Shown piece after piece: positions 54,975 to 62,610 of a stretch of 64,000 nt of DNA. Every line of letters begins with the position of its first letter. Position 1 is the stretch's first letter. The position numbers and the translations under genes were made by a program. This DNA is from Rahnella laticis (GTDB lineage: Bacteria; Pseudomonadota; Gammaproteobacteria; Enterobacterales; Enterobacteriaceae). The stretch lies in NCBI RefSeq assembly GCF_015644585.1, contig NZ_JADOBI010000002.1, positions 434,001 to 498,000 of the forward strand. Reading direction: 5' to 3'. The notes under the pieces were generated by a model that was not told the origin of the DNA, did not search any database, and saw nothing but the letters and a program-made list of their open reading frames with translations.

Positions 54975-54990
54975 CTGTACTTTGTGACAG
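54975..54990. promoter_or_regulatory. Lux-box-like site before luxR
   Basis: CTGTACTTTGTGACAG, a 16-bp imperfect palindrome sharing 11 of 16 bases with the EsaR box type CTGTACTATAGTGCAG. About 52-67 bp before luxR start; suggests auto-repression. Confidence 0.4.
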
Positions 54991-55041: not shown

Positions 55042-55803
55042 ATGCATTCGCGTGTTAGAAATGATGAAAAGATTATCGATATGTTACGTGATTATCTCGA
55101 AAGGAAATTACTTCCTTACGGCAATCTGAAATACACCTATCTGGTGATCAATAAAAGAAATCCGGTCGACATCTTTGTCGTCACCAGCTATCCGGATGAA
55201 TGGGCCGATATCTATAAATCGCATAATTACCAGCATATCGACCCGGTGGTTCTGACCGCGCTTAAACGTGTTTCCCCGTTCGCGTGGGATGAAAATCTTA
55301 CCGTGCTTTCTGATTTAAAATCATCCAAAATTTTCTCGCTTTCTAAGAAATATAATATCGCGAACGGTTTTACTTTCGTGCTTCATGACCACATGAATAA
55401 TCTGGGCATGCTGTCGCTGATTATGGAAGCGGGCGCGGATAAAGGGCCGGAAAACAGGGTCGCGCAGGATATGGATAAGCTGCAATGCCTGCTGATCAAA
55501 ACCCATGAAAAGATGCTGATGCTAAACCAGAGCGCGGCGCGTTCATCGCAGATTTCGCCTTCATTGGTGTCGGGCGGAAAACCGATTTTCTCACCGCGTG
55601 AAAACGAAGTGCTGCACTGGGCGAGCATGGGGAAAACCTACGATGAGATTTCGCAGATCATCAATATCACGACGCGAACCGTGAAATATCATATGGCTAA
55701 CGTGGTGAAAAAGCTGGGGGTTATTAACGCCAAGCAGGCAATCCGGCTTGGCGTTGAACTGGAACTCATCAAACCTGTACTGGTGTCACCGGCAAAGACA
55801 TAG
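55042..55803 (+). CDS. LuxR-family AHL receptor/regulator (EsaR/ExpR-like)
   Basis: 253 residues. The autoinducer-binding domain has the conserved Trp-Tyr-Asp-Pro-Trp set (YPDEWADIYKSHNYQHIDPVV...FAWDENL). The C-terminal LuxR helix-turn-helix is FSPRENEVLHWASMGKTYDEISQIINITTRTVKYHMANVVKKLGV. It is convergent with luxI and overlaps its end by 35 bp, as for esaR/esaI in Pantoea. It is probably a ligand-releasing repressor in that class, but this cannot be proven from sequence alone. Confidence 0.9.
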   Translation: MHSRVRNDEKIIDMLRDYLERKLLPYGNLKYTYLVINKRNPVDIFVVTSYPDEWADIYKSHNYQHIDPVVLTALKRVSPFAWDENLTVLSDLKSSKIFSLSKKYNIANGFTFVLHDHMNNLGMLSLIMEAGADKGPENRVAQDMDKLQCLLIKTHEKMLMLNQSAARSSQISPSLVSGGKPIFSPRENEVLHWASMGKTYDEISQIINITTRTVKYHMANVVKKLGVINAKQAIRLGVELELIKPVLVSPAKT

Positions 55804-56419
55804 GCCATTCACATAACGCCTCCAGGGAGGCTTCGGACTGATCGCTGATGCGCCGGGCAAGGATGCCCTGGTTATGCAAATCAATCGGCAAACGGAGCAG
55901 GTAAATAGGCTCATTTTCGCTGACGAAACCTTCCTTTATCACTTCAATTTCCCAGCCGGAACGTTTCGCAATCGTCAGCATTGCCCGGCTGACAATGGTG
56001 TATATTCCGGTGTGTCCGTGATGGCGCGCATAATTAATCATCGAAAGAAACAGAACATGGCTGATCGGGAAACGGCTGCCGAGTAATTCTTTTGCGCGGT
56101 TCTTATCCACGAAAAATCGGCTCGATTCGATATAATCACCTTCAGGTAATTTCACGTCATCAAATAGCCGGTTAAAAGTATGGGTGATCATATTTGGCAG
56201 ACGTAAATCAACAAAGCGCACGCTGCACACCAGCTGGTTGTCGTAAATACCCAGCATGTAGCGCGTATCGGCATTATCAAATTCATCAAATTCCATGTCA
56301 TTGCTGCACTGAACAGCCCAGTCCAGGCGGTCTTTAAACGTTTTTTTCCTCAGTTTGTAGAGATCATCCGAACGTTTACCTGTCAGGTCGTTGTAACTCA
56401 CATCGAAAATTTCCAGCAT
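55769..56419 (-). CDS. N-acyl-homoserine lactone synthase (LuxI family, EsaI-like)
   Basis: 216 residues from ATG 56419 (MLEIFDVSYNDL), AGGAA before it. With this start the invariant LuxI residues fall at their standard numbers: R24, F28, W34, D45, D48 and R68, which supports the start. The E-x-SRFFVD core is present. Makes an acyl-HSL from S-adenosylmethionine and acyl-ACP; acyl chain length cannot be read. Last 35 bp overlap luxR. Confidence 0.93.
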   Translation of the reverse strand: MLEIFDVSYNDLTGKRSDDLYKLRKKTFKDRLDWAVQCSNDMEFDEFDNADTRYMLGIYDNQLVCSVRFVDLRLPNMITHTFNRLFDDVKLPEGDYIESSRFFVDKNRAKELLGSRFPISHVLFLSMINYARHHGHTGIYTIVSRAMLTIAKRSGWEIEVIKEGFVSENEPIYLLRLPIDLHNQGILARRISDQSEASLEALCEWPMSLPVTPVQV

Positions 56420-56552
56420 TTTTTTTCCTGATTTTGAATACGGTCGAAGGGTTATATTTGGCATCTGCATTGATTATTACAATATACAATCGGCAAATAA
56501 ATCACCGTCTGTAGGGGGAATTTGTTTATGAGGGGAGTTTGTGATGTAAAAC

Positions 56553-56604: not shown

Positions 56605-57849
56605 TCAGTGATAAACAGGTAACAGATTTACGCTGGAAAGAATATGTACGGCCGCGTTGAGCACACCAAACAGTAATACCAGCACAATCATTTTATTTCC
56701 GCCCCACACGCGGTACAGCGGGCTGCCGAAGCGCAGACGCGATGCGCGCGCCATCAGCGCCGGGACGATAACCGCCCAGACGGTGGCCGCCAGACCGGCA
56801 AAGCCGATCGCATAGATAAAGCCATCCGGATAAATCACGCCGCCAACGATGGGCGGGATAAACGTCACCAGCGCGGTTTTAAAGCGTCCGGTGCGGCTGT
56901 CATCAAACCCGAACAGATCCGCCAGATAGTCGAACAGGCCAAGCGTCACGCCGAGGAATGAACAGGCGACGGCAAAGTTGGAGAAGACCGTCAGCAGGAG
57001 ATCTAATCCTTCGCTGTTGAGGATCTGGCTCAGTGACTGCACCAGCACGTCGATGTTGCCGCCACGGGCCGCAATGCCGATGAACTCAGGGCGCGGTATG
57101 TTCCCCATCGTCCCCAGCATCCAGATGATGTAAAGCCCGAGCGCCATCAGCGTGCCCAGCAGCAGGCATTTTTTTATGATCTGCGGATTTTTGCCGTAAT
57201 ACTTCATCAGGCTCGGCACGTTGCCGTGATACCCGAATGATGCCAGGCAGAACGGCAGCGTCGCCAGCACGTAAGGCATGTAGCATGGATTGATTTCGAC
57301 GCTGTTGAGTAAATTCACCGGCTTGATGTGCCACAGCAGGCTGCCGAACGTCAGGAAGAAAGCGATGATTTTAGCGCCCAGCACAATCGCCGTCATGCGG
57401 CTCACCGCGCGGGTACTCAGCCAGACAATAAACGCCACGGCAAGCGCCGTCAGCAGCCCGCCGAGACGCGGGGAGAAGTTCACCGACATTTCGCGCATTG
57501 TATGCTGGAGCACGGAACCGCTGGCTGAGATATAGGCATACGTCAGGATATACAGCACGAAGGCGATGGTCAGGCCGTTAAGCCGGTTCCAGTTTTTGCC
57601 CAGCAGATCGCCAGTCACCGTGTTGAAACTCGATCCTACCGGATAATTCAGGTTGGCTTCGAGGATCATCAGGCCGGAATGCAGCATGCAGAACCAGGTA
57701 AAAATCAGTGCCGCGACAGACCAGAAAAACCAGGCACCGGACATCACCACCGGCAGGGAGAACATCCCGGCACCAATAATGGTTCCTCCGATAATCATTG
57801 CGCCACCCAGCACCGAGCGTTGTGGGGTGGTCACGGAAAGCGTCGCCAT
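56605..57849 (-). CDS. mtr: Tryptophan-specific permease Mtr
   Basis: 414 residues, the same length as E. coli Mtr, with very similar sequence ([66 protein letters not shown], ending [10 protein letters not shown]). Aromatic amino acid/H+ symporter of the inner membrane with eleven helices. A TrpR operator-like site lies upstream at 58001-58020. Confidence 0.95.
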
Positions 57850-57967
57850 AGTGCGGTTCCTCGCGTGGCTTTTATCACGATTCGTTCAAGAATTGCTGTA
57901 AAAGAATTGATAGGGGAAATGACCAAAAATCGCAGTTTTATCCTGCCTTGTTAGCCTTACGCGCCGC

Positions 57968-57996
57968 AATATAGTGCATCTCGTGCCAGATGTACA
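57968..57996 (-). promoter_or_regulatory. Promoter of mtr
   Basis: Minus strand -35 TGTACA (57991-57996) and -10 TATATT (57968-57973) with 17-bp spacing, next to the TrpR operator. Confidence 0.5.
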
Positions 57997-58000
57997 CTGC

Positions 58001-58020
58001 TGCACTAGTTTGCTGGTACA
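58001..58020. promoter_or_regulatory. TrpR operator upstream of mtr
   Basis: TGCACTAGTTTGCTGGTACA resembles the trp operator (ACTAGT / CTAGTAC arms) and the E. coli mtr operator. Suggests repression by TrpR with tryptophan. Confidence 0.65.
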
Positions 58021-58192
58021 AAGCAGCACATTGGCGAAGATGCCGGGCAGGGCGCGAATCGGGATGTTTCTAAAATATGAAAATGTTGATTTTTTAGGTT
58101 AAAACGCTTACCCCTATATCTGGTGCAGATCACAGTTTTCATTATTATTTCTTATCAAAAAAGGGAGCGAAAACCTGTGCTTAAATACAGTG

Positions 58193-58220
58193 TTGACACA
58201 CTGCTCATAACGAGTAAATT
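58193..58220 (+). promoter_or_regulatory. Sigma-70 promoter of the candidate RNA
   Basis: TTGACA (58193-58198) and TAAATT (58215-58220), 16-bp spacing, perfect -35. Confidence 0.55.
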
Positions 58221-58310
58221 AGAAGTCAGCCCCGCAGAGAAATGAAGTGAAGATTTTATTTCCCGGTGCATTTAACAAGTTGATAAACTTGTCAGTAATG
58301 AGATGCGATA

Positions 58311-58521
58311 AAGGCCACGAAGTATTTTTGTTTGGGTGATTCAATATCAGGCGATATTTGAAGGTCTGTGAGATGATGCTTTAAGGCCACGCAGTAAATC
58401 TGTGCAATCGCATTATGTGGACGAAAACGCGATGATGTAACGCCTTGTAATTAAGAGTAATGTTCGCGATTTGGGTACGTAAGTCTGAAATCGAGAATAT
58501 CGCGAAGAGAGTAAGGCCACG
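58311..58521 (+). repeat. Three AAGGCCACG repeats
   Basis: Copies at 58311-58319, 58383-58391 and 58513-58521, spaced 72 and 130 bp; the last two share TAAGGCCACGCA. All lie in the candidate RNA. Confidence 0.75.
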
Positions 58522-58740
58522 CATCAAAGAGTCTATATCGCGAGGGTGATGTACTCATTTATCCTGACGTGAAAAACCAGGCTGAGTGAAATGAACAGGA
58601 TAACGATGTTATTCCATAATATTATAGGAGGATAGCGTTAACTGGCTTCAAAAATATATCCTGTGAAACGATGTACATCTGTAGAAGTAAGTATCTGTAA
58701 TTAAGTTGATGAATGTTAAATACTAATTTGATAGTACCTT

Positions 58741-58773
58741 AAAAGCCCCGGCAATAACTTGCTGGGGCTTTTT
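58741..58773. terminator. Terminator of candidate RNA and pirin gene
   Basis: AAAAGCCCCGGCAA / TTGCTGGGGCTTTT, 14-bp stem with one G-U pair and loop TAAC, then T residues on the plus strand. Also usable on the minus strand. Confidence 0.88.
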
Positions 58774-58824
58774 CATTCAGGGCATTGTAATATCTCGGAT
58801 TATTCGTAACGCTAGCCTGTTGCC

Positions 58825-59574
58825 TTATTTTACGTTACCGAATTTACCGCTGATGGTGCCTTCCAGAACAGATTCCGCATCCAGATACACCAGAAAACAC
58901 ACCAGCGTCGTCTCTTTTGTGGCCGTAGCAGGTGTCAGTGCGCTGGCTTCGTCGCTGATTGCGTCACCTTTAGCCAGCGTGTGACCGCCAATTATCATCT
59001 CGCCGTCCATGACGTACAGCCATTGCGCAAATCCCGGATGCGTGGGGATTTCAATTGTCGTGTCAGCGTCCAGGCGGGTATCGTAAATGTAGATGGCCTG
59101 GCGGATTTCAAGCAGCGAATCAATGCCTTCCGGCGCGCCAATCAGTGTCCATGCGTTTTGTTTCGGTCCGTCCCGACGTTCCATAAACTGCACGCGGCCT
59201 TCCAGATTCGCCTTGCGCGGGCGGATGAAAATTTGCAGCATCTCGGCCGAAACCAGAGGTGTGGATTCTTCATGCCAGAAACTTTCCCCGGCATTCATCA
59301 TCATCAGTTTTTTCGGCGAAAGGGGAACGCGGTTGCCGGCAGAATCTTCGTGAACCATCGACCCGCGCCACATATAGCTGAGGATCTCGTCATTATTGTG
59401 CTCATGCATTTTCACCAGCGTCCCCTGTTCGAGATTCGCGTGGTCAATAACACTCAGCGGGCCAAAAGCATCGTCACCGCGCTCCGGCAGGATCTGCCCC
59501 GGACGCATACGCCGGATCCGGAAAGGGCCGTATTCGAAAGTCGTTTTGGGTTCAGCACGTAATACGTTAAACAT
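58825..59574 (-). CDS. Pirin-family protein
   Basis: 249 residues, bicupin pirin fold: DHANLEQGTLVKMHEHNNDEILSYMWRGSMVHEDSAGN has the iron-binding His/Glu set (His-x-His, His-Glu), followed by PRKANLEGRVQFMERRD and a degenerate second cupin. Pirins may be quercetinase-like dioxygenases or transcription cofactors. No link to neighbours. Confidence 0.85.
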   Translation of the reverse strand: MFNVLRAEPKTTFEYGPFRIRRMRPGQILPERGDDAFGPLSVIDHANLEQGTLVKMHEHNNDEILSYMWRGSMVHEDSAGNRVPLSPKKLMMMNAGESFWHEESTPLVSAEMLQIFIRPRKANLEGRVQFMERRDGPKQNAWTLIGAPEGIDSLLEIRQAIYIYDTRLDADTTIEIPTHPGFAQWLYVMDGEMIIGGHTLAKGDAISDEASALTPATATKETTLVCFLVYLDAESVLEGTISGKFGNVK

Positions 59575-59679
59575 GTTTTCTCCGGCAGCTTATTTTAGTC
59601 TCCGGCCAGTCTACCAAGGAGGCGAAGAGGGGGTGATCTTTTTGTTAAGAATGCGGCGTTTCCTGGCTGCGGGTACTTT

Positions 59680-62610
59680 TCACGCCGGGCTTACTTCACA
59701 AAAAATATCCTCAACAGGCTGCGGTGCGATTTTTGCCAGCAGGGCGGCGATGTCCACGCTGTCTGTTTTCTCCGGTTCTAAATAGGTTTGGGCATAATCA
59801 CGCCAGATACCCGATTGCAGAAACAGGATGAATAAGTCCCGGTCCAGATGATGTTCATTCACCATGCTGACCATAATATTCAGCGCTTCCGAGAGCAGTT
59901 TTCCCGGTTTGTACGGCCGGTCAGCGGCGGTCAGTGCTTCGAAAACGTCCGCAATCGCCATCATCCTGACCTGAACACTCATCTGCGTGTAATTAAGCTG
60001 ATACGGATACCCTTTGCCATCGACGCGCTCATGATGGCCGCCGGCAATCACCGGCACGTTTGACATCGTGCGCGGGAATGGCAGGTTTTCCAGCATGATA
60101 ATGGTCTGCATGATGTGCTCGTTGATTTTGTAACGCTCCTCGTCGTTCAGTGTTCCGCGGCGGATTGCCAGGTTGTAGATTTCGCCATAGTTATACTGCA
60201 ATTCCGGTTTTTTCAGTTTGAAGTGATAACGGTCCGCCTGTTTGCTGGTGCCATCGCGGTAGACGATATGCTCTTCTTTGTCTGCCAGCATCGGTTCCTG
60301 AACCGGTAACGCCGGTTGCGGCAAACGTTGTTTGCGCACCAGCTCTTCGCGTGAAATCCCCGCCGTATCGTCGAGCGTGCGCGTCCAGCGGTAACCGGCA
60401 ATCTGACTGATTCGCACCAGCGCATCATCGGAGAGAAACTCACTGCCGATATTACAGCGGGCAATAAAATAGAAATCATCGTCGAGCTGGCGCAGCGTTT
60501 CGTTCAGAGCGTGCGCCTGCGCGCTGTCAGCAGGCTGTCCGGCGTGTTCACGTAAAAATGCGATCTCTTTCTCGCGTTTCAGTAATTCAAACCGCATGCG
60601 AATTTCATGGATCCGGTTATAAATCAGCTCCAGCTTGGTGGCTTTATCCACCACGGCTTCCGGCGTGGTGATCTTGCCACAGTCGTGCAGCCAGCAGGCG
60701 GTATGCAATTCCTCCCACTCGTTTTCGGAAAGCGTAAAACCGGCGAAAGGCCCTTCGCGGCTTTCAACCGCGGCTTTGGCCAGCATTTTGGTAATGACCG
60801 GCACGCGCTGACAATGTCCGCCGGTATAAGCGCTTTTCTCATCGATGGCACCGGCGATCAGCTTGATGAAGGCGTTCATCAGATTCTTTTGTTCCACCAG
60901 CAGATGCTGCGCTTCAATCGCCACGGAAAGCATGCCGACCAGCGAATTGATCAGCTGGATTTTGGCGTTTTCATGCGTGTCGGTGAGCGTTCGGGTATTG
61001 AAAAGCAGCAGAAAACCCAGAAGCTGGTTATCGTGCGTCTGCATGGGAACCGCGACGTAGCGCAGCGGTAAATGTGGCCGGAAGAAGGTGAGCAGCGGGG
61101 CGGGCAGCGACTCCTGCGTCAGCGTTCCGCTAATAGTCTGGCCTTTAACGATTTGCCAGAACTCGCTGCAACGGTCGTTATCGATTTCCAGAGGCGAAAT
61201 CCCGGTAAGCTCAATATTTTCCTCACGCCAGCGAAATGCCGCGGGCGTAAATAAATTCATGTCCTGATTGGCAAGAAAGACCATGCCGCCGGTCATGTCG
61301 GCTATTTCCGTGGTCTCCGTTAACAGCCCCTGCATTTGCTGGGTAAAATTATTCTTCACCGTCAGCATACTGCCCATCGAGATAAATTTGGTCAGTGTGA
61401 GTTTCATTTTCGCCATCGCGGTATGTAAATCATCGACCTCTTCAATCACCGAACTGTGTCCGGCATGGTCTTCCACTTCGAAGTGCAGATTACTGATTGC
61501 CTCGGCATCTTTTCGCAGGCTGATCAGCGGGCGGGAGATCCTGCGCGAGAAATACCAGATCACCGGCAGGCTGAGTAACAGCAGCAGGAAAGCAATCAGC
61601 GTCGAGCGGTTACTGATCGCACTGGCATCCGCCGTCAGGAAAGCCGAAGGCGTGGCGATCGCCAGGCGATAGTCGTTTCCCATACTGTGAATATTGATGA
61701 CGGCACCGTACCAGTCCTGATTATCCACGCTGAAAAGACGGCTGTTTCCGGCGTTATCCTGCGTGAACAACGGTTGTAAAACGGGGAGATTTCCCACACC
61801 GGTATTCCCGCGTATTTGTGCCGGCTGGCTGGCGATGACTTCGCCGGATTCTGACAAAATCGCCGCCTGACTGCCCGGCGGTAATCCCTGCTGCTGCAAA
61901 AAGGCGGACAGCGAGGCAAGAGAAACGTCGAGTCCGATCACGGCGTGCTGATTATCTGCCTGCTGGCTGTAGGTAAAGCCGGTTTCGCCCGTGCCTTTGA
62001 AAATATAGTTGGGCGAGGTAATCAGTCCCTTTTCCGCGCTGGCCAGCGTGAACCATTTTCTGCTGCGCGGATCGTAATTGTCATAAGGCACAGTGGCTGA
62101 GGAAATCACGTTTTGCTTATTGTCTAAATAGAACTCTTTTTTCTCCGGCGTCGCTAAATCAAACCGGTAGTTTTGAGCCAGCCATTGCGCACTGGCCGGT
62201 GCATTAAATAACGCCCGATTCTGATCGGTTAACCGGCGAAGAATAAAAAAGTCGCCGTTCTGATAGGCGCTGTAGACCGAGCTGGCGTAATGATTCTGCT
62301 GCAATACCATGATGAAATTGCTCACCAGCGCCATGCGTTGTGCTTCGGTTTGCGCCGCGGTGATGGGCATTTTCGTCAGAATATCCACTGACATCGCCAT
62401 ATTACGTGTCACTGAATCCAGCTCAGCGGCAATGGCCTCACCGGTTTTCTGGTACTGCTGATGCGTGCTGACTTCGGTCAGTTTTGTCAGCCGGGTGTGG
62501 CTGAAAAGAATAATAATGCAGCCGATCGAAACAATTAAAAACGTAAAAAGGACTGTGATCTGGATGTGTAGCGGATACCGGTTTTTTAGTTTTTTAATAC
62601 GGGTTTTCAT
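59680..62610 (-). CDS. Membrane sensor with HD-GYP domain and large insertion
   Basis: 976 residues from ATG 62610 (MKTRIKKLKNRY), GGGGAA upstream; longer frame at 62649 is possible. N-terminal helix (HIQITVLFTFLIVSIGCIIILF), a periplasmic Cache-type sensor region (about 45-325), second helix (ISNRSTLIAFLLLLLSLPVIWYF), HAMP (about 350-415), a GAF-like region (about 420-600) and HD-GYP. The latter has HDCGKITTPEAV and a GGHHERVDGKGYP motif, but about 160 residues are inserted between them. Expected to hydrolyse cyclic di-GMP. Ligand unknown. Confidence 0.85.
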   Translation of the reverse strand: MKTRIKKLKNRYPLHIQITVLFTFLIVSIGCIIILFSHTRLTKLTEVSTHQQYQKTGEAIAAELDSVTRNMAMSVDILTKMPITAAQTEAQRMALVSNFIMVLQQNHYASSVYSAYQNGDFFILRRLTDQNRALFNAPASAQWLAQNYRFDLATPEKKEFYLDNKQNVISSATVPYDNYDPRSRKWFTLASAEKGLITSPNYIFKGTGETGFTYSQQADNQHAVIGLDVSLASLSAFLQQQGLPPGSQAAILSESGEVIASQPAQIRGNTGVGNLPVLQPLFTQDNAGNSRLFSVDNQDWYGAVINIHSMGNDYRLAIATPSAFLTADASAISNRSTLIAFLLLLLSLPVIWYFSRRISRPLISLRKDAEAISNLHFEVEDHAGHSSVIEEVDDLHTAMAKMKLTLTKFISMGSMLTVKNNFTQQMQGLLTETTEIADMTGGMVFLANQDMNLFTPAAFRWREENIELTGISPLEIDNDRCSEFWQIVKGQTISGTLTQESLPAPLLTFFRPHLPLRYVAVPMQTHDNQLLGFLLLFNTRTLTDTHENAKIQLINSLVGMLSVAIEAQHLLVEQKNLMNAFIKLIAGAIDEKSAYTGGHCQRVPVITKMLAKAAVESREGPFAGFTLSENEWEELHTACWLHDCGKITTPEAVVDKATKLELIYNRIHEIRMRFELLKREKEIAFLREHAGQPADSAQAHALNETLRQLDDDFYFIARCNIGSEFLSDDALVRISQIAGYRWTRTLDDTAGISREELVRKQRLPQPALPVQEPMLADKEEHIVYRDGTSKQADRYHFKLKKPELQYNYGEIYNLAIRRGTLNDEERYKINEHIMQTIIMLENLPFPRTMSNVPVIAGGHHERVDGKGYPYQLNYTQMSVQVRMMAIADVFEALTAADRPYKPGKLLSEALNIMVSMVNEHHLDRDLFILFLQSGIWRDYAQTYLEPEKTDSVDIAALLAKIAPQPVEDIFCEVSPA

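Follow-up and report, generated by a model that had tools for sequence, protein, structure and literature searches.

Comparative analysis of the 975-bp gap between mtr (positions 56605-57849) and a pirin-like gene (58825-59574), both located on the minus strand of the window (the whole 64-kb stretch of DNA that was analyzed) and both named from Pfam, indicates that the plus strand of this gap probably harbors an independent gene whose product, a structured non-coding RNA about 550 nt long, is under LexA control, is induced by DNA damage and acts as an RNA. The boundaries of the putative unit, its predicted structure, the absence of a shared open reading frame (ORF), the distribution of the family and the operator-like sequence all emerge from the comparison of relatives. 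To our knowledge, the SOS response includes few known non-coding RNAs, all of them parts of toxin-antitoxin systems or pieces of mRNAs. If the interpretation proposed here is correct, a large folded RNA with its own LexA-controlled promoter has escaped E. coli as the model organism: the RNA is present in about a fifth of the sampled genomes of the family (76 of 392) and was not detected in any of the E. coli records that were searched. Such an RNA would be a candidate for direct tests in harmless strains from soil and plants and would offer structural biology a new natural fold, and its link to a cold-shock RNA chaperone would be an entry point to its function. The stretch is very probably the gene of a previously undescribed RNA, which many relatives of E. 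coli possess and which was not found in E. coli itself. No description of it was found in the literature searched or in Rfam 15, these searches and Rfam being the scope of the statement; the available part of a report on RNA discovery in 50 genomes names no such motif (PMC11109978), and a relative of the family may have been predicted earlier among the 113 predicted loci with LexA boxes mentioned in the accessible part of another study (PMC2527527).

In this order, the plus strand of the gap contains a TTGACA hexamer, a TAAATT hexamer, a body in which long ORFs are lacking and, at its end, a strong terminator; judging from the sequence, a LexA-type operator, a sigma-70 promoter, a predicted transcript of about 550 nt and a terminator make up one gene unit. 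The -35 hexamer detected in the promoter scan (TTGACA, 58193-58198) is exact in 46 of the 58 non-redundant members of the family, and the -10 hexamer, which follows after a 16-nt spacer (TAAATT, 58215-58220), conforms to TA(A/G)ATT in 46 of the 58 members. With a score of 10 out of 12, this promoter ranks at the top of the 9 promoter-like sites in the region 57000-60000 (3.8 expected); the antisense promoters in the region are consensus matches only. The predicted non-coding RNA (58226-58776), the start of which is placed by the position of the -10 hexamer, corresponds to a unit that is conserved in relatives, contains no shared ORF and has a predicted folding energy of z = -4.7, none of 100 dinucleotide shuffles of the body being as stable. 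At the 3' end lies an intrinsic terminator (58742-58771) in which 99.3% of the alignment cells are paired and double changes are found at 4 of the 12 pairs; a terminator scan did not list it. Three copies of AAGGCCACG (58311-58319, 58383-58391 and 58513-58521, plus strand) occur in the 64-kb window, all of them inside the gap, compared to 0.66 expected, and three copies were reached in 3 of 100 shuffles. The preliminary description of this region had pointed out the 975-bp gap upstream of mtr, the TTGACA promoter, the body without open frames and the three AAGGCCACG copies, all of which are confirmed here. The terminator that it called perfect is indeed present, but the word is slightly too strong because the arms (58741-58754 and 58759-58772) are 93% complementary. 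The preliminary description missed the LexA-type operator and the linked cspA-type gene, the latter of which can be detected only with other genomes.

The family is widespread among the relatives of the window's genome. A BLASTN search with a 641-bp query yielded matches in 16 of 59 relatives, including all 14 genomes of the genus (the window's own among them), and in 74 of the 392 genomes of a family-wide sample; a covariance model of the 138-position core detected members in the 76 same-family genomes mentioned above, which represent 34 of 154 genera, on plasmids as well as chromosomes. When the covariance model was run with stricter filters that lose weak matches, 6 of 247 genomes in an order-level sample, all 6 in the window's own family, and 1 of 274 in a class-level sample, the window's own, were detected. 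Matches were found in 67 plasmid records, 14 of which cover at least 80% of the query (Pantoea, 49 records; Rahnella, 12; Duffyella, 3; Ewingella, Yersinia and Citrobacter, 1 each). There was no match among 50,697 phage records or among the 20,395 E. coli records searched, and no remnants were found beside the csp genes of E. coli in the Qin prophage or in the cspH-cspG region. A pattern scan of named genomes identified 77 stretches, the titles of which include Pectobacterium, Serratia, Citrobacter, Proteus, Kluyvera, Pantoea, Erwinia, Buttiauxella, Enterobacter and Klebsiella grimontii, and 8 viral contigs from IMG/VR hold the RNA; all 85 score at least 140 bits with the whole-unit profile. 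The pattern-scan stretches and the genome-sample loci overlap in species and genomes, and their counts are not additive. The 126 extracted copies, many of them near-copies, span nearly the whole profile; trimming left 123 (L100, L025 and L026 were lost), of which 58 are non-redundant at less than 90% identity. Although the family is otherwise enterobacterial, one member is found on a contig titled Chryseobacterium (L100), possibly a mixed assembly. In the window's genus, three loci (L025, L026 and L027), which may be remote members, match mainly at the terminator; their scores with the whole-unit profile are circular, given that they were part of one early profile, and they are not counted as members.

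In 23 aligned loci, the conserved block starts at the operator and stops at the terminator. Among 11 same-genus copies, the mean identity is 65% in the upstream intergenic DNA and 89.8% in the operator box. The RNA itself reaches 88-95% over its first 328 nt and 83-84% over the following 187 nt; the terminator is 90% identical and the DNA right behind it 34%. For the neighboring coding stretches, identity is 80% over 250 bp of mtr and 78% over 376 bp of the pirin gene, and therefore the RNA, at 83-95%, evolves slower than the adjoining genes. No Rfam family reached its gathering score anywhere in the 64-kb window or over the RNA in 18 related loci, which rules out a known Rfam family, as the preliminary description had supposed; below the threshold, Spot 42 is the highest-scoring family in the gap, with a match at the terminator end that reaches 27 bits where 80 are required.

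The predicted structure was analyzed with two alignments, A1 with 57 of the 58 sequences (L038 was left out) and A2 with the 34 that are longer and better aligned. The consensus fold obtained from the 34 sequences consists of 46 pairs in 8 helices, with 98.8% of the cells paired. The preliminary description had proposed that relatives be aligned in search of compensatory changes; in the named fold, both sides of a pair are changed in 86 cells compared to 25.3 +- 6.6 in shuffles, none of 500 shuffles being as high, and in at most 16 cells when the partners are slid, although the excess over the slid versions is partly built in, as this very alignment (A2) also served to derive the fold. Further pair types are a less clear measure (39 versus 36.1; 18 of 500 shuffles as high). 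In a structure-free covariation screen of the 58 sequences with a tree-based null model, no pair was found at E < 0.05, and the one pair at E < 1 (58465-58504) is part of the consensus fold; many core pairs are invariant, and variation in the core may be too low for this screen to have much power. The fold is a prediction that is supported by covariation on the named structure and by the 5' hairpins, the structure-free screen being non-significant. The 5' hairpin (58229-58269) comes from separate folding of the first 50 nt of 51 of the 58 sequences, the promoter anchor not being found in the others: z is below -1 in 33 of the 51 (mean -1.54), and 8 of the 51 have z above 0 and no such stem. 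The hairpin occupies the same place whereas the sequence of its stem varies (GCACC/GGUGC, AACAGC/GCUGUU, AUCAGC/GCUGAU).

Downstream of this hairpin, two predicted domains lie side by side, each closed by a GCGAU/AUCGC helix. In domain 1 (58303-58413; closing helix 58303-58309/58407-58413), the GGCC of the first AAGGCCACG copy (58313-58316) pairs with that of the second copy (58385-58388), and the two helices have 96.6% and 98.5% of the cells paired, with double changes in both. Domain 2 (58428-58542) is closed by the helix 58428-58434/58536-58542, in which 100% of the cells are paired, and includes the pairing of an upstream GCC (58442-58444) with 58515-58517 in the third AAGGCCACG copy and a further helix, 58464-58467/58502-58505; at one pair of this domain, U-A is replaced by C-G in 16 of 57 sequences. 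In the window sequence, AAGGCCACGCA-NN-AAA is found on the 3' side of both domains. A long-range helix (58548-58679), formed by GAUGUAC (58548-58554) and GUACAUC (58673-58679), has 99.6% of the cells paired and shows a G-C to A-U replacement at one pair in 6 of 34 sequences; conserved A/U-rich stretches (58702-58706 and 58712-58721) precede the terminator. In the consensus, the AAGGCCACG copies are not three equal loops, the first pairing with the second and the third with the upstream GCC. Sequence conservation, compensatory changes, the lack of a shared ORF and the absence from Rfam support the suggestion, made in the preliminary description, of a large structured non-coding RNA of about 550 nt.

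Two bases short of the -35 hexamer, the window contains an exact match to the LexA-type operator, CTGT-N8-ACAG (CTGTGCTTAAATACAG; 58175-58190, plus strand). Among the 58 members, the eight fixed letters of this box show no mismatch in 8, one in 37, two in 10 and more in 3, that is, at most one mismatch in 45 of the 58; when the 37 other offsets for which the sequence suffices are examined, none of the 58 comes this close, with the exception of 14 of the 58 at exactly 14 nt upstream. This family-wide conservation is the real argument for a candidate operator, chance being non-negligible for one box in one genome: two CTGT-N8-ACAG sites were found in the 64-kb window versus 0.43 expected, and two were reached in 7 of 100 shuffles. 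The second of these sites (54975-54990), located about 50 nt before a luxR-type gene (55042-55803) that faces a luxI-type gene (55769-56470), may be due to chance. The longer pattern TACTGT-N8-ACAG has 13 sites in this genome (21 rows, compared to 7 for the reversed control pattern), which include recA, sulA, recN, uvrD, a yebG-like gene and four umuD-type genes (named by reading the N-termini); the presence of these sites at SOS-type genes indicates that the LexA of this genome uses that code. The window's own box is missing from this list because it lacks the leading TA. One of the four umuD-type sites (G000:C12:419453-419472) shares the contig of the window and precedes it by about 15 kb.

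With the caveat that LexA control of the RNA gene is suggested by a candidate operator, we infer that the unit is transcribed, bound by LexA and induced by DNA damage, and that its product acts in trans. In an undamaged cell, LexA would occupy the operator beside the -35 hexamer and block the promoter. Upon DNA damage, RecA would trigger the self-cleavage of LexA, whereupon the sigma-70 promoter would fire and the RNA would be made up to the terminator. The RNA would then fold into the 5' hairpin, the two similar domains with their GCGAU/AUCGC helices and a third part tied by the long-range helix, and would work as an RNA, most likely via its folded core. Candidate partners are proteins, other RNAs and further copies of the same RNA; the ribosome can be named as well.

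Several alternatives have to be weighed against this scenario. It is possible, albeit unlikely, that the RNA is structured but has no link to SOS, the palindrome beside the -35 hexamer being the site of another regulator or a part of the promoter. This view draws on the proximal half-box, which is CTGT in 8 of the 58 members and ATGT in 40, a replacement that should weaken a single LexA site; in the ATGT members, the LexA interpretation would rest on two overlapping imperfect boxes, which occur in some members, and both of which have at most one mismatch in 13 of the 58 only. In addition, the 30-nt CTGTTATTAAAAACATGTTATTAAAAACAG of some members is a near-palindrome around CATG, and the ColE1 operator, a binding site of LexA, is only loosely alike, with one mismatch in the first box and two in the overlapping second one (at offset 15, not 14). 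However, the box is exact in 8 of the 58 members, the window included, and stays within one mismatch in the 45 members counted above at one fixed place, and the larger palindrome, too, begins with CTG and ends with CAG. A LexA-controlled RNA could also be a trans-acting antisense regulator that works with Hfq or ProQ, an option to which we assign a similarly low probability. Its own promoter and terminator, and the conserved A/U-rich stretches before the latter, are compatible with such a role, for which there is a precedent in the same bacterial family: the SOS-induced DinR of Klebsiella pneumoniae, an Hfq-dependent RNA derived from the 3' end of the dinI mRNA, base-pairs with the ftsZ mRNA (PMC10907235). 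DinR is cut from an mRNA, whereas the RNA described here, for which LexA control is predicted, would have its own promoter and a large fold, with conservation that spans two large folded domains; moreover, the U tail is short, with 4 or 5 T in 36 of the 58 members by a crude count.

Another precedent for RNAs under LexA is the locus of IstR and tisB in E. coli, which form a toxin-antitoxin pair. The combination of a LexA-type operator, a structured leader and a Shine-Dalgarno-like GGAGG (58627-58631, plus strand; present in 29 of 34 members) resembles tisB, and one could imagine a type I toxin mRNA in which a short ORF for a toxic peptide is concealed; a 29-codon frame, MFAIWVRK..., is indeed common to a part of the window's clade. 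This is nevertheless an improbable explanation: no start codon followed by a frame common to the family was detected in the 34 members, and none that is shared follows the GGAGG. Frames of 11 to 45 codons follow the start of the 29-codon frame, which is present in 20 of the 34 sequences; among sense starts, the most widely shared (25 of 34) opens frames of 10 to 52 codons with dissimilar peptides, and among antisense starts the best one (31 of 34) opens frames of 11 to 92 codons. Within 58226-58775, the longest ORF encodes 48 amino acids and is antisense, and the longest wholly internal sense ORF encodes 30. A protein-coding role was rejected on the grounds that no frame is shared family-wide, and in this respect the family differs from the IstR-2/tisB locus, where IstR-2 is under LexA (PMC2527527). 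The length, repeats and stem-loops resemble those of the CsrB/RsmZ sponges, which sequester CsrA, and the preliminary description had considered a protein- or RNA-sequestering RNA. The RNA lacks, however, the many GGA loops that define such sponges, with 2-8 GGA per RNA (mean 4.9; 34 members) and no ANGGA in the three sequences counted, and no Rfam sponge model matched; a CsrB-type sponge is contradicted by the GGA counts and, as an account of the family, is hardly conceivable. Highly improbable, too, is a cis-regulatory leader of a cold-shock gene. Of the 56 loci with sufficient sequence, 16 have a cspA-type gene downstream on the same strand, at a distance of 263-388 nt from the RNA (none of 55 loci has one upstream), but the conserved terminator lies in between, and 40 of the 56 loci, the window included, have no csp gene there. 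Moreover, the csp gene has a leader of its own in all five csp-linked loci that were scanned, namely the cspA thermoregulator (RF01766), which is part of the csp mRNA and does not overlap the RNA; as a csp leader, this thermoregulator is placed directly downstream of the RNA in the 16 loci.

A different kind of alternative is a relative of GOLLD and ROOL, that is, a large ornate RNA of mobile DNA that forms homo-oligomers via GGCC palindromes; we consider this doubtful. The size, the extensive fold, the presumed damage induction and the location of some relatives at prophage edges, where an integrase (L058) or a phage tail protein (L060) is the neighbor, fit this notion. ROOL and GOLLD are reported to form cages, the kissing loop of OLE to have a GGCC palindrome, and GOLLD to rise during phage lysis (PMC12286853). 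Yet the RNA described here differs in sequence, the GOLLD, ROOL and OLE covariance models not being even among the weak Rfam matches in the gap; it is shorter than GOLLD, has its own LexA-type operator, seldom has a tRNA gene nearby (4 of the 54 loci that were scanned) and is absent from the 50,697 phage records, although 8 IMG/VR contigs hold it, and the GGCC copies form intramolecular pairs in the consensus. The stand-alone, LexA-controlled RNA gene appears to us the probable interpretation, and a more elaborate version of it, which we regard as speculative, would be an SOS-induced mobile module. The two-domain RNA would assemble into a particle, of RNA alone or of RNA and protein, and might capture 30S subunits via the GGAGG without a start codon or pair with itself through GGCC; in one clade it would be part of a cassette with a cspG-type chaperone gene that settles beside tRNA or stable RNA genes and prophage edges.

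The gene neighborhoods of the RNA vary between genera. In three loci of the window's genus with differing flanks (L018:1372-2589, L021:1177-2394 and L023:1117-2402), a block of RNA and csp is shared; in the window's genome, the flanks of the L018 site are present, with 1,666 other bases between them. The csp gene is labelled cspG in one Citrobacter record. A midpoint-rooted tree of the 58 members separates 21 without csp, including the window's copy, from 37, of which 16 have csp (support 93/96), and the csp label changes 9 times on this tree, compared to 14.2 when shuffled; copies from the window's genus are found in both parts. A complementarity between a loop of the RNA and the csp cold box, seen by eye, is not conserved and was dropped. 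Genes for tRNA and similar stable RNAs are frequent insertion places of mobile DNA. Members of the family were observed near genes for tRNA-Sec (L037:147-237), tRNA-Phe (L113:2641-2716), tRNA-Asn (L080:7795-7870), 4.5S RNA (L101:7693-7789), RNase P (L078:7584-8000) and the phage C4/isrK RNA (L050:2543-2776). In one of the viral contigs, a gene with a colicin pore-forming domain (L055:4670-5779) is located 1.1 kb from a family member.
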